NCBI GenBank assembly: GCA_016788115.1
Contig: JAEURR010000006.1
Span: forward strand, 248,001 to 312,000
Direction: 5' to 3'
From: Chthonomonas sp.
GTDB taxonomy: Bacteria > Armatimonadota > Fimbriimonadia > Fimbriimonadales > Fimbriimonadaceae
Length of the DNA stretch: 64,000 nt
Below are positions 5,328-40,955 of this stretch, in pieces. The notes below the pieces were generated by a model. The model had not been told where the DNA came from. It ran no database searches and worked only from the letters and a program-made list of their open reading frames with translations. Each line of letters starts with the position of its first letter. Position 1 is the first letter of the stretch. A program made the translations under genes and the position numbers.

Positions 5328-6409
5328 CGGGGTGTGATCTCAACTTTGGGTGCCGTGACCTGAACTTGCGCCCAGCCTTCGACCAGTTTCAAGACCTTAG
5401 CGCCTTTAAGCTTGGCCGTCCCGACCGGGAGCCAAATCTTCGAACCGATCGACGCGCCGGAGTACTCCCACTTCTGTTCGCTCGCGACTTCGGCAGCGGA
5501 CTTGGCAAAGCCCGTCGCACTTTCCGAAGTATTCAGGACCATGCTCCGGCTAAACATCTCGCTCGGCATGACCCGCTCCACCCAGAGCGCAACCCCTAGG
5601 TAGGCGTCCATGGCCGCCTTCGTCTTGCGGACGAGGAGCGCTCGATTCGGCCCCTGGTCGCGCACCGCTTTGGCGAGCGGGTCTACGTTTGCGGTTACCC
5701 AAGCCTGGATCCGGTCGAGCGGCGCACCCATCGCGTCGTTCGAGCCCAGACGTTCGCTCTCGAGCTCCTCGGCCAGCCAGGATAGATAGAGTTTCTCCCC
5801 GAGGTAGCCGTTCGCCCACTCTTCCGGCTCAACAAACCCGCCAACCGGCGGAAGCGTTGCATGGCCGTACTCGTGCGCGATCTCGCGCGCCATCTCAAGA
5901 GGGTCGGTGAAGCTCGTGACATCGTAGATGTACATCGTGTTCACCATCGCGGCCATCCCCTGGCGCATCTCCTTGTCGAAGAGCTGTTCGCCGCCCGCCT
6001 TGCCGCCGTAGCACAGGTACAGATCCACGAATTTCATCGTCGCCTCGGTGTGGTCTAGCCGCAGCTTGTCGATGTTGAACTCCCATAGACGCATCAACAT
6101 GCGGCTCGCGGAGATCGCGAGGTCGTTCTTCGAGGATCGGTACTGACTGAAGATCCGAAACCGCAGGTTCAGCGGCGAACCAGGTACGAGGCGTCCGTAC
6201 CCTGAGACGATGTACTCAAATATCCACTCGTTCTTCGGCGACTTCTGCGGCGGATTGAGCTTGGTATTGTCGATGCGCAGAAGTGCGCGCGTCTCGGTCT
6301 GACCTGCAGACCGGAGTTCCATCATGTAGGCGGCTGGCGGCTCTTGCGCGGCCAGCGGGAGGCCGGACACGCAAAGACCCAGCGTCAGTGCCGCCCGACC
6401 AAATCTCAT
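5324..6409 (-). CDS. Exported protein with HExxH metallopeptidase-like motif
   Basis: About 361 residues starting [22 protein letters not shown], a good Sec signal peptide. The mature part contains a zinc-protease signature HEYGH with flanking hydrophobic residues ([16 protein letters not shown]) and, about 15 residues on, acidic residues (GFVEPEEW) that could supply the third ligand. I do not recognise the family. The start ATG overlaps the trxB stop (ATGA, 6406-6409), and a further in-frame start 21 nt upstream is less likely. The gene is sandwiched between trxB and mazG with 4-nt overlaps on both sides, so it is part of one operon. Peptidase activity is inference from the motif only. Confidence 0.8.
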
Positions 6410-7338
6410 GCGTGGCTTTCCTCGAGCCACCTCTCCGCATCGATGGCGGCCATGCAGCCGGTACCCGCGGCGGTCACTGCTTGACGATACACGCTGTCGG
6501 CGACGTCGCCCGAAGCGAAGACGCCCGGGATATTGGTCGCCGTCGAGCCGGGAGCGACCTTGAGGTACCCGACCTCGTCCATCTCCAGCAGGCCCGCGAA
6601 GAGATCACTGTTGGGCTTGTGTCCGATCGCCACGAACACACCATCGATGGGCATTTCTGTCTGCGAGCCATCGAGCGTCGATTCGAGGATAACGCCGGTG
6701 ACCTTCTTGGGGTCCTCTTGGCCGAGGATTCGGCTTACGAAGCGATTGGTGAGGATCTCGATTTTCGGGTTGTTTTGAACCCGCTCCAGCATGATCTTGC
6801 TCGCACGGAACTCGTCTCGCCGGTGGACGAGTGTTACTCTCTCGCAATGGCGGGTCAAGTAATTGGCCTCTTCCATGGCGGTGTCGCCGCCGCCGATGAC
6901 GATGACCCGCTTGTTCCGGAAGAAGAAGCCGTCGCACGTGGCGCAGGCGCTCACGCCGTGCCCGCCGAAGTGGCTCTCGCCCTCGATTCCAAGCCACTTT
7001 GCGCTCGCGCCGGTTGCGATCACGACGCTGCGGGCTTCATGCACCTGGTCGCCGACCGACACGCGGAACGGTCGAACGCTGAAGTCCACCGCAGTCACCG
7101 ACTCGTACCGAATGTCAGCGCCGAATCGAGAGGCTTGCTTGGCAAAAAGCTCCATCATCTCCGGGCCCATGATCCCGTCCGGAAAGCCGGGGTAGTTCTC
7201 GACATCGGTCGTGATAGTCAACTGACCGCCTGGCTGCGGCCCCGCGAAAAGGAGCGGTTTGAGATCGGCGCGGGCGGAGTAAAGTGCGGCCGTGTAGCCT
7301 GCGGGGCCAGAGCCGATGATGATCAAACTGTGAATCAT
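6406..7338 (-). CDS. trxB: Thioredoxin reductase (NADPH)
   Basis: FAD-dependent reductase of thioredoxin, 310 residues. It has an N-terminal FAD motif GSGPAG (9-14), the redox-active CATC at residues 132-135, the NADPH motif [12 protein letters not shown], and a C-terminal FAD motif containing GVFASGDV. No thioredoxin gene is adjacent. It heads an overlapping three-gene unit (trxB, exported HExxH protein, mazG). Confidence 0.96.
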
Positions 7339-7380: not shown

Positions 7381-7680
7381 CTACAAGTTCGGCTCGACGG
7401 TCACCTTGATGCCGATCGTGCGGATGATCTCGGCTGCCCTTTCGCACTCCTGTTTAGCTGCGATGTGGACCGTACTTTGGCCGAGCGCATCGACCTCCCA
7501 CGTTTCGATGAAGGCCTCTTGCTCGTCGCACCCCGTCGCCACCATCAAGATGGCCATGACCTCTACGTCGGTGTTTGTATCGTTGTCGTGGACGATCACG
7601 ACCCAGCCGCGGTCCGTCGCATCCTGGGTGGACTCAGTCAAGTCGGGAGCTATGAGCGGGCGAGTCGAAAGCTTAGTCAT
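7381..7680 (-). CDS. ClpS-like adaptor, divergent copy 2
   Basis: About 99 residues from the ATG at 7680, which overlaps the end of the preceding ClpS-like gene by 8 nt. The core (WVVIVHDNDTNTDVEVMAIL ... EAFIETWEVDALGQ ... ECERAAEIIRTIG) follows the ClpS fold pattern of E. coli ClpS. The N-degron pocket is altered: the Asn-Asp-Asp signature reads Asp-Asn-Asp and the conserved pocket histidine (H66 in E. coli) is Asp. It may bind ClpA/ClpC-type chaperones without normal N-degron recognition. No clpA or clpC is in the window. Confidence 0.75.
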   Translation of the reverse strand: MTKLSTRPLIAPDLTESTQDATDRGWVVIVHDNDTNTDVEVMAILMVATGCDEQEAFIETWEVDALGQSTVHIAAKQECERAAEIIRTIGIKVTVEPNL

Positions 7681-7990
7681 CAAACTCAGGGCCGACTTCG
7701 GTGACGACGCCGATTCGGTTAATGACTCGCGCGACCTTCTCGCAGACTTCGCGCGACTCAAAATGGACCGGTGCCTGACCGTAGGTGTGGGCCTCCCACG
7801 TCTCGATGGCCGCCTCTTCAAGCGTGCAGGCGGTGGCTTCCATTAGGATGCGGACTACCTCATCGGCAGAGTTGTACGAATTGTTGAAGATCGTAACCAT
7901 CCACCGGCGCGTGCCGATGACGGTGGTGTTCGCAGACAAACCCGCGTCGGTTTCACTGTCGATGTCGTGGCTCATCCGTTCGTAGTTCAT
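7673..7990 (-). CDS. ClpS-like adaptor, divergent copy 1
   Basis: About 105 residues. The core (WMVTIFNNSYNSADEVVRIL ... EAAIETWEAHTYGQAPVHF ... VCEKVARVINRIG) aligns with ClpS. The pocket Asn is kept, the two following Asp residues are Asn and Ser, and the pocket His is kept (EAHTYG). A poorly conserved 30-residue N-terminal tail precedes the domain, as in ClpS. The ATG at 7990 is preferred over a TTG at 8005. TACAAT (8018-8023) lies upstream. It overlaps copy 2 by 8 nt, so the two are co-transcribed. Confidence 0.75.
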   Translation of the reverse strand: MNYERMSHDIDSETDAGLSANTTVIGTRRWMVTIFNNSYNSADEVVRILMEATACTLEEAAIETWEAHTYGQAPVHFESREVCEKVARVINRIGVVTEVGPEFDD

Positions 7991-8023: not shown

Positions 8024-10174
8024 TCAAAGACTGTGCTCATCAGCGCTAGGATTTTCGTCCGGCAGTGCACCCGTCCGGCTAGCTCTTGATCCGGTGAGGG
8101 TAAGCACAGCGACCCCGAGCAGACTGACCACGGCCAGCCACCACCCTGTGACTAGTTTGGGAGGCAAGTACGTGAGGGCGACCTCGTGATCGCCCGACGG
8201 AACTCCTTCGATCCTCATCCACGCCCCGTCCGCGCTCACCGTCATCGGCTTCCCATCTACCGTTGCACTCCAACCGTCCATAAATCGCTCCCGAACTTGG
8301 AGCGTTCCGCCGCCCTTCACCGACAGGCTCAATCCTTGAACGGACCTGCTGGCATCCAGCCCGGAATCAGTATCGGTTTTCCAGTACCAAGCCTTAGCCA
8401 CGGGCGAACGATCGACGGTTCCATCGGCGAGGGGACGCCAGACCTCTGCCACTCCGTACTGCGCGAGGAGCGCAGGGTCGGCACTCGACATCGTCAGCAT
8501 CATATTGCCGTTCTCGGGTGGCGATGTCCGCCCGCCATTGAGCGCCTCGAAGAGCTTCGCGGTATCGGCATGAATCAGCGAGTCGTAACCGCTCAGTTGA
8601 GGAGTGCGTGCAAGCGTCAGCAGGTTGGGCGGCAATGGAGCATTCGGTCGCGTGTACAGCGACCAGCGGTCTTGGACCACCGCGATACGGCGCTCGGGCG
8701 AACTCTGGGGAAACTCCATCGGGTGCCCAGCAGGAGTCATGCGGAACGTCGCGGCAAGCACGGCCAATCCGGCCACGGCCCAGACGAGCAGGCCCTTCTG
8801 AACTCGCTGCACGAGAAGAACTCCGAGTAAGACGGCCAGTCCGACGAGAACGAGCGCCAGTGGCGACAGTCCGCCCCCGATGCCGAATCCCAAAGACAAG
8901 AAGACGACTGTGACCACGATGCCGCGCACCTTCACCTCCCGGCTGATCCCTTCCTCGGGGTTCCGCGACCCGGCGAAGATCGCAAGTCCGAGCAAGAAAA
9001 GCACACCTGCGCGCGCCGGTGAGCCAGTCGCCGACCAGCCCGGCACCAAGAAGTACATCGCCTGGGTCAGGCTCGACCCGACTGCGAGCAGCAAGCCTAG
9101 CACCGCCACCCCCGCGAACGCGCCTGCAACAGGATCGGTCAGCCTTCGGCGGCCCGCTATGAGCAAGCCGAGCAGCACCGCCCCGAGCCCGAAGCTGGAC
9201 TCGGCGAAGTTGGCACCGGGCTTGCGCAGGGCAGGGAGAAACTCCACGATCCGTCCGACCCCTTCAACCTCCATCTGCTGTCGCGGGTCGCCCAGCGACT
9301 GCGGAATAAAGAGCCCTGCGAATTCGTACGGCTTCAGAGACAGTGCGTTGTAGGCAGCGTAACCTTCGGCGTTCGCGACGTTTTGGCGGTGCGAGTGTTT
9401 TCCATAGTCCAGGACTGGGAGTAAGTGCGGTGCACTCAGTCCGACACCCAGTGCGATGCACAACGCACTCGTGAAGCTTCGTCGCCACTCCAACTGAGTC
9501 ACCGTCAACCAGAGCCATACGAACGCCAGCGCGAGGAATCCATACGCGACAAACTGCAGGTGCCCCGAGAACACGATGCAAGCGACGCTTACCGCCAATC
9601 CAACCCGATCGATGCGGCGCTCCTCGCGGTGCAATCCAACCAAGAATCCAAGCGCCCATGGAACCCACGCTACGGTGCTCGGTACCGAGGGCAAGGCGGT
9701 CCAGGCGACCATGAAGCTCGAACCCGCGAATCCCAACCCGGCCAGACTCGCGAAGACGCGGCTTCCTCCCAAGCGCAAAGCGCAGAAGGTCACGCCGCAC
9801 CCCGCGACAATGAGATGCGCCCCGGCGAGCACTAGCATGCCCCACTGCCATCCGAAACCGAGGACCCCCATGGCGATGTGCGGAAGGTACAGCGCCGCCG
9901 ACTGCGAATTTGCCAGCAGCGGCGTACCGCCCAGGATGTACGAATTCCAGGTGGGGAGCAGGTGCTGCGACCATCCCTCAAACACCAGCGACCGCCACGG
10001 CGCGAACTGCAGCATTCCGTCGGCAGCGAGAACGTCCCACCCTCGGCTCGTATCCCCAGCGAATTGATCCCACGGGCCGACGGCTCCACCCCGCATGCCG
10101 ATATCGAGCATGAGGATCAAGCCGAAGACGATCGACGGCAAGTACGGCAAAAGCTTGGCAGTACGGTGAACCAT
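8024..10174 (-). CDS. YfhO-family polytopic membrane protein
   Basis: About 716 residues (729 if the ATG at 10213 is used). More than ten hydrophobic segments run from the N-terminus to about residue 480. A large extracytoplasmic region follows, then the family-typical C-terminus RERFMDGWSATVDGK with a final membrane helix (WWLAVVSLLGVAVL). YfhO proteins are implicated in glycosylation of teichoic acids or other cell-surface lipids, probably using lipid-linked sugars. The start is uncertain: 10213 leaves only 14 nt to the divergent gene, so the internal ATG at 10174 is preferred. Specific substrate unknown. Confidence 0.85.
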   Translation of the reverse strand: MVHRTAKLLPYLPSIVFGLILMLDIGMRGGAVGPWDQFAGDTSRGWDVLAADGMLQFAPWRSLVFEGWSQHLLPTWNSYILGGTPLLANSQSAALYLPHIAMGVLGFGWQWGMLVLAGAHLIVAGCGVTFCALRLGGSRVFASLAGLGFAGSSFMVAWTALPSVPSTVAWVPWALGFLVGLHREERRIDRVGLAVSVACIVFSGHLQFVAYGFLALAFVWLWLTVTQLEWRRSFTSALCIALGVGLSAPHLLPVLDYGKHSHRQNVANAEGYAAYNALSLKPYEFAGLFIPQSLGDPRQQMEVEGVGRIVEFLPALRKPGANFAESSFGLGAVLLGLLIAGRRRLTDPVAGAFAGVAVLGLLLAVGSSLTQAMYFLVPGWSATGSPARAGVLFLLGLAIFAGSRNPEEGISREVKVRGIVVTVVFLSLGFGIGGGLSPLALVLVGLAVLLGVLLVQRVQKGLLVWAVAGLAVLAATFRMTPAGHPMEFPQSSPERRIAVVQDRWSLYTRPNAPLPPNLLTLARTPQLSGYDSLIHADTAKLFEALNGGRTSPPENGNMMLTMSSADPALLAQYGVAEVWRPLADGTVDRSPVAKAWYWKTDTDSGLDASRSVQGLSLSVKGGGTLQVRERFMDGWSATVDGKPMTVSADGAWMRIEGVPSGDHEVALTYLPPKLVTGWWLAVVSLLGVAVLTLTGSRASRTGALPDENPSADEHSL

Positions 10175-10227
10175 AAGGCGCGATTTATCATGGCGCATCA
10201 CGTCGGAACACATGCCAACATAGAAGG

Positions 10228-40370: not shown

Positions 40371-40955
40371 TTATCGTTCGCCAGCCTTCAGAACTTTATC
40401 GACGATTCCGTATTCCTTGGCTTCGTCAGCCGACATAAAGTGGTCTCGATCACAGTCCTTGCGCACTTGCTCTTCGGTCTTTCCCGAGGCCTTTGAAAGA
40501 ATCTGCATCAAAATGTCCATATAACGGTTCGCTTCGCGCAAGGCCACGTTCATATCCGCAACCGTGCCACGCGCGCCACCGCTCACCTGGTGGATCATCA
40601 CGCGACCATTTTCCAAGCAATACCGCTTGCCTTTGGTTCCACCTGCGAGCAGCACTGCACCCATCGAGGCAGCTTGGCCGATACAGTACGTCGCGACTGC
40701 GGGCTTGATAATCTGCATCGCGTCGTAAATCGCGAGTCCGGCCGAGACCGAACCACCCGGGCTGTTGATGTAGAAGTGGATGTCCGCTTCGGGATCCTCT
40801 TTCTCAAGGAACAGGAGCTGGGCGACCAACAAGTTCGCAACGTAGTCATCGACCTCCGTACCCAAGAACACGATCCGGTCCTTCAGTAGACGTGACCAAA
40901 TGTCATAGCTGCGCTCGCCGCGCGCGGTTTGCTCGATTACGTAAGGAACACCCAT
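40371..40955 (-). CDS. clpP: ATP-dependent Clp protease proteolytic subunit
   Basis: 194 residues from the ATG at 40955. Serine in GQAASMGA, histidine in MIHQVSGG and Asp in DRDHFMSA form the catalytic triad (Ser97, His122, Asp171 in this numbering). The alternative ATG at 40964 lies only 2 nt from a strong AAGGAGG and is too close. The chosen one is 11 nt away and gives the standard [10 protein letters not shown] start. It is co-transcribed with clpX. Confidence 0.97.

Follow-up and report, generated by a model that had tools for sequence, protein, structure and literature searches.

Caulobacter ClpS binds the amino group of its ligand through the residues equivalent to Asn34, Asp36, and His66 of E. 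coli ClpS, as cited in a report on Leptospira (PMC12493166). A review places Asn34, His66, and the main-chain oxygens of residues 35, 38, and 40 next to the backbone of the ligand; the contacts of Asp35 are reported there as main-chain, not side-chain (PMC8346999). An E. coli ClpS carrying D35A, D36A, and H66A together is a poor binder of substrate (PMC9810338). UBR1 is a working type-2 N-recognin whose N-domain reads type-2 N-degrons, and the human protein carries Asp263 at the position of His66 (PMC8346999). In fission-yeast Ubr11, D251N together with H254Y abolishes type-2 recognition (PMC4447728); D251 corresponds to position 35 by our own motif alignment. ClpS1 of Leptospira has Asp at position 66 and binds ClpA with a Kd of 0.44 µM (PMC12493166). 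It does so without Lys84, the ClpA contact of E. coli ClpS, indicating that Lys84 is dispensable for unfoldase binding.

The window analyzed here, a 64,000-nucleotide stretch of a Chthonomonas sp. contig from the family Fimbriimonadaceae of the phylum Armatimonadota, contains two overlapping ClpS-family genes, referred to as copy 1 and copy 2 (Table 1). A literature search under the phylum spelling Armatimonadetes found nothing linking ClpS with this phylum.

Table 1 Coordinates of the ClpS-family gene pair, its neighbors, and genes of the proposed Aat-ClpCP pathway in the source genome.
Feature	Position in window	Strand	Position in assembly	Remarks
Copy 1	7673..7990	-		ClpS-family protein, 105 aa
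Copy 2	7381..7680	-		ClpS-family protein, 99 aa
Copy 1/copy 2 overlap	7673..7680	-		8 nt, ATGACTAA; contains the stop of copy 1 and the start of copy 2
YfhO-like membrane protein gene	8024..10213	-		Directly upstream, 33 nt gap; PF09586 23.6 bits, below cut-off 28.5
Thioredoxin-reductase-like gene	6406..7338	-		Downstream, 42 nt gap; neighbor in source genome only
ClpP peptidase gene	40386..40922	-	C6:288386-288922	Expected protease of the pathway
Aat (L/F-transferase) gene			G000:C8:119650-120147	

Predicted ClpS fold of both gene products

Copy 1 and copy 2 share 42% identity across 76 residues. The 2.4-Mb genome has no further ClpS-family gene, and no canonical ClpS was found elsewhere in it. 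Both exceeded the curated cut-off of the Pfam ClpS model (PF02617, 23 bits), with 37.2 bits for copy 1 and 34.1 bits for copy 2. Both fell far below the cut-offs of the NCBIfam ClpS equivalog models, the best scores being 17.7 bits against a cut-off of 107 and 21.3 bits against one of 86.

AlphaFold2 models of the two proteins were built from alignments of 80-81 homologues. The mean pLDDT was 88.5 for copy 1 and 87.2 for copy 2, and the ClpS core reached approximately 97. The top Foldseek matches of both models were exclusively ClpS structures, with TM-scores normalized to the target of up to 0.94 (copy 1) and 0.90 (copy 2). An extension of 25-29 residues, mostly of low confidence, precedes the first strand in both models, and each protein is predicted to consist of a ClpS core and a flexible arm of about 25 residues at its N terminus. 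The structure check for a non-ClpS fold, set beforehand, returned ClpS from AlphaFold2 and Foldseek for both copies. The preliminary description of two ClpS-fold genes with an 8-nt overlap agrees with the coordinates, the shared sequence ATGACTAA, the Pfam scores, and the predicted folds.

The same description had presented the copies as linked in expression; the genes overlap and are probably co-translated, and the 8-nt overlap makes translational coupling likely. In close relatives with measurable dS, dN/dS was approximately 0.01-0.2 for both copies. Strong purifying selection acts on both. Chance open reading frames were ruled out, because the tandem recurs with unchanged gene order in 47 genomes and dN/dS is low.

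Residues of the binding pocket

Alignment to E. coli ClpS placed Asn36, Asn37, Ser38, and His68 of copy 1, and Asp32, Asn33, Asp34, and Asp64 of copy 2, at the positions of Asn34, Asp35, Asp36, and His66, as had been read earlier; E. coli numbering is used below. At the alpha-amino contact positions, copy 1 keeps Asn34 and His66 but has Ser36 as the third residue. Copy 2 has Asp34, Asp36, and Asp66 there, Asp66 being the residue found in UBR1. At gatekeeper position 40, the source genome has Ala in copy 1 and Asp in copy 2, and its copy 2 is the more altered one at positions 34, 40, 66, and 67.

Among family copy 1 proteins (n = 44), Asn34 was found in 43, Asn35 in 41, Asp36 in 33, and His66 in 40. 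Family copy 2 proteins (n = 42) have Asn34 (28) or Asp34 (14), Asn35 (all 42), Asp or Glu36 (39), and Asp66 (36) or His66 (6). Two states are lineage-wide: Asn35, which the copies share, and Asp66 of copy 2. The residues named at the outset mostly belong to this lineage-wide pattern; Ser36 of copy 1 (2/44) and Asp34 of copy 2 (14/42) are minority states, and Ala67 of copy 2 occurs in 1/42. The claim that the pocket is altered differently in each copy stands, and the difference is conserved throughout the lineage. The real departure from known N-recognins is Asn35, which is common to both copies.

The preliminary description had suggested that the copies may recognize other degrons. A lost or foreign degron as the consequence of the pocket changes is not supported, since human UBR1 (Asp263, PMC8346999) and Leptospira ClpS1 (PMC12493166) carry Asp at position 66. 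The His66-to-Asp change is thus compatible with N-degron binding, and the genes track Aat (see below). A changed degron specificity of the copies is possible.

Positions 34 and 66 of copy 2 are occupied by Asn/Asp in 53 proteins, Asp/His in 27, Asp/Asp in 18, and Asn/His in 7. Asp34 pairs with His66, and Asn34 with Asp66, beyond chance (Fisher 1.9e-7, uncorrected). On a weakly resolved tree, six co-changes at these positions went in the same direction and none in the opposite one, with 0.9 expected; restriction to supported branches left 2 pairs only. The pattern is suggestive only, but an acid at 34 and an acid at 66 may tend to substitute for each other, and such an exchange fits a site needing an acid near the positive amino group.

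Of the unfoldase-contact positions, 79 carries an acidic residue (Glu or Asp) in roughly half of the proteins and 84 carries Val or Ala; conserved Glu79 and Lys84 contacts were not found. A near-invariant Cys pair (Cys55 and Cys83 in copy 1, Cys51 and Cys79 in copy 2) runs through the Armatimonadota ClpS classes and aligns with Cys residues of human UBR1 and UBR2. Proteins of a third ClpS-like class (L132, L156, and similar) have Cys at the Asp35 position in 15 of 48 cases.

Distribution and co-occurrence with Aat

The tandem was present in 41 of the 45 Fimbriimonadaceae genomes sampled and in two further families of the same order (f3 and f5), so that the pair, at first described as unusual, is the rule within its lineage. 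The exceptions in the family have copy 1 only (G007, G211, and G215) or copy 2 only (G162). Decay within the tandem was seen in f3/f5, copy 1 being decayed in G036 and frame-broken in G040. Genomes of family f2 have either one gene of another class, one canonical ClpS (G025), or no ClpS-family gene at all. Copy-2-type genes are also common beyond the order but stand alone there, and the third class is widespread, with Asn-Asp-Asp or Asn-Cys-Asp and mostly His66. No viral copies of copy 2 were found. A record titled Methanoregulaceae archaeon isolate SJ84 (L241) carries the bacterial pair; its title is probably wrong.

Copy 1 precedes copy 2 in 47/47 tandems and in 62/62 tandem loci from named records, and the second start overlaps the first stop in most tandems. 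Copy 2 is slightly better conserved than copy 1 in the tandem set. The copy 1/copy 2 split is old, since the two copies are as similar inside one genome (42% identity) as they are across genomes (41%), which rejects recent duplication or gene conversion. The tree also points to an old split, as it separates copy 1, copy 2, and the third class almost completely (4 changes, minimum 3).

The source genome contains Aat together with ClpP and a partner unfoldase with Clp_N domains, a ClpC with an 841-aa frame and two Clp_N repeats. Aat was found in 41/45 family genomes. Bpt was rejected as the aminoacyl-transferase, as none was found in 41 genomes and it is absent from the source genome.

Among 201 genomes of the phylum, 76 had Aat and a ClpS-family gene, 3 had Aat alone, 20 had ClpS alone, and 102 had neither. 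A ClpS-family gene was thus present in 76/79 Armatimonadota genomes with Aat versus 20/122 without it, and with kinship ignored the association was strong in the phylum (Fisher 2e-32) and outside the order (1.6e-22). Aat was present in 63 of the 68 genomes with a copy-2-type gene; in several near-complete ones, G061 and G132 among them, this gene is the sole ClpS and occurs together with Aat. Aat is not required to keep the ClpS genes, because they are retained without it in G211 and G215, which have copy 1 alone, and in G013, which has both. G211 and G215 (loci L150 and L151) are 1.5-Mb Fimbriimonadaceae of one genus that have kept copy 1 and lack copy 2 and Aat.

Proposed role and comparison with known N-recognins

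The pair is a conserved lineage-specific form of bacterial ClpS. The tracking of Aat by ClpS genes and the presence of Aat, ClpC, and ClpP in the source genome make N-recognins of an Aat-ClpCP N-degron pathway, with labor divided between the copies, the most likely identity of the pair, a reading that we hold with moderate confidence. Both copies would dock on the N-domain of ClpC and pass proteins with a destabilizing first residue, partly made by Aat, to ClpCP. An old duplication may have divided this job: copy 1 would retain Asn34 and His66 for the alpha-amino group, and copy 2 would use an acidic side chain at 66, as in the ClpS-like N-domain of eukaryotic UBR1, and often at 34. Co-translation of the overlapping genes would make both receptors in step, and the copies probably differ in the preferred N-terminal or second residue, like cyanobacterial ClpS1 and ClpS2. 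Rather than a broken form of a known recycling pathway, the pair probably represents one with two receptors, and a whole bacterial lineage appears to run Aat-ClpCP with two non-canonical receptors and without canonical ClpS.

Asn35, universal in copy 2 and near-universal in copy 1, would argue against N-degron reading, as the Ubr11 and E. coli ClpS mutants suggest. The missing Lys84 also speaks against the proposed role, though Leptospira ClpS1 binds ClpA without this residue (PMC12493166). Both copies might have left N-degron reading and dock on ClpC with internal or C-terminal degrons, or merely block other substrates as ClpC modulators. We consider this unlikely. The change at position 35 and a neighbor kills type-2 binding by Ubr11 (PMC4447728), but the Asp35 contacts are reported as main-chain, not side-chain (PMC8346999). 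The gatekeepers of the source genome, Ala and Asp, and the persistence of ClpS copies without Aat in G013, G211, and G215 fit such a loss; however, ClpS-family genes co-occur almost completely with Aat, and Asn34 and His66, or their acidic replacements, are kept in most members.

Antagonism or regulation of one copy by the other, through a heterodimer or competition of an empty pocket for the ClpC N-domain, had also been suggested, and we regard it as very improbable. The overlapping genes in fixed order would give matched amounts of both copies, and copy 2 of the source genome is the more altered one; however, copy-2-type genes occur unpaired alongside Aat in other families, as does copy 1 in G007, indicating that neither copy needs the other, and it is copy 2 that is slightly better conserved. 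No evidence for antagonism was found.

In 40/53 genomes, the gene immediately upstream of the pair is a homologue of the YfhO-like gene, and within the order tilS, ftsH, and a TPR gene often lie ahead of that homologue (loci L034-L069 and L134-L153). The thioredoxin-reductase-like gene was rejected as a functional partner, as it adjoins the pair in the source genome only and is not in the conserved unit. A role with the membrane protease FtsH instead of ClpC is possible but not favored, and we give it scarcely any credence: the tilS-ftsH-TPR-YfhO-clpS1-clpS2 cluster is frequent, with ftsH upstream in approximately 26/53, but the arrangement tilS-ftsH is common among bacteria, the source genome has a broken cluster of which only the YfhO-like gene remains, and ClpS proteins are known to act on ClpA or ClpC.

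Within the preferred reading of the pair as receptors of Aat-ClpCP, the acidic pocket of copy 2 offers a small soluble bacterial protein for studying N-degron reading of the UBR1/UBR2 type, and the natural pair makes the division of labor between receptors directly testable.

The profiles of both copies matched the UBR1/UBR2 N-domains above every bacterial ClpS of known structure, in a library containing few ClpS. The copy 2 profile gave 1.4e-8 for UBR2 and 2.9e-8 for UBR1, the best ClpS structures being malarial (3e-4) and mycobacterial (1e-3), and the copy 1 profile gave 2.3e-7 for UBR1 versus 1e-4 for the best ClpS structure outside UBR. The third-class profile gave a better match to E. coli ClpS than to UBR2. 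In the fold comparison, the models of both copies were nearest to bacterial and plastid ClpS, and yeast Ubr1 was far lower. With few ClpS in the structure library, the resemblance to UBR1/UBR2 is a likeness, not proof of descent. It is quite unlikely that the copy 1 and copy 2 proteins of Armatimonadota are the bacterial ClpS group nearest the UBR1/UBR2 N-domain, with a tandem in which one copy would read N-degrons through a histidine pocket and the other through an acidic, UBR-like one of different specificity.

The UBR1/UBR2 N-domain shares Asp66 with copy 2, aligned Cys residues with the Armatimonadota ClpS classes, and the best PDB profile matches with both copies. Unlike them, UBR keeps Asp35 and His38 and is one domain of a ubiquitin ligase, whereas the copies are stand-alone bacterial proteins of 99-105 aa. 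E. coli and Caulobacter ClpS (PF02617) resemble the pair in fold and length, in having a flexible N-terminal arm, in Asn34 and His66 as far as copy 1 is concerned, and in the genomic association with Aat, a Clp_N unfoldase, and ClpP; the copies differ from them in Asn35, Asp66 of copy 2, the lack of Lys84, a shorter C-terminal part, and the tandem arrangement. Leptospira likewise has two ClpS per genome, one with the His66-to-Asp change and without Lys84, but the genes are unlinked, one copy is canonical, and the proteins were studied with ClpA (PMC12493166). Cyanobacterial ClpS1 and ClpS2 are similar to the pair as two ClpS proteins that work with ClpC and have different N-terminal residue preferences (PMC7966870).
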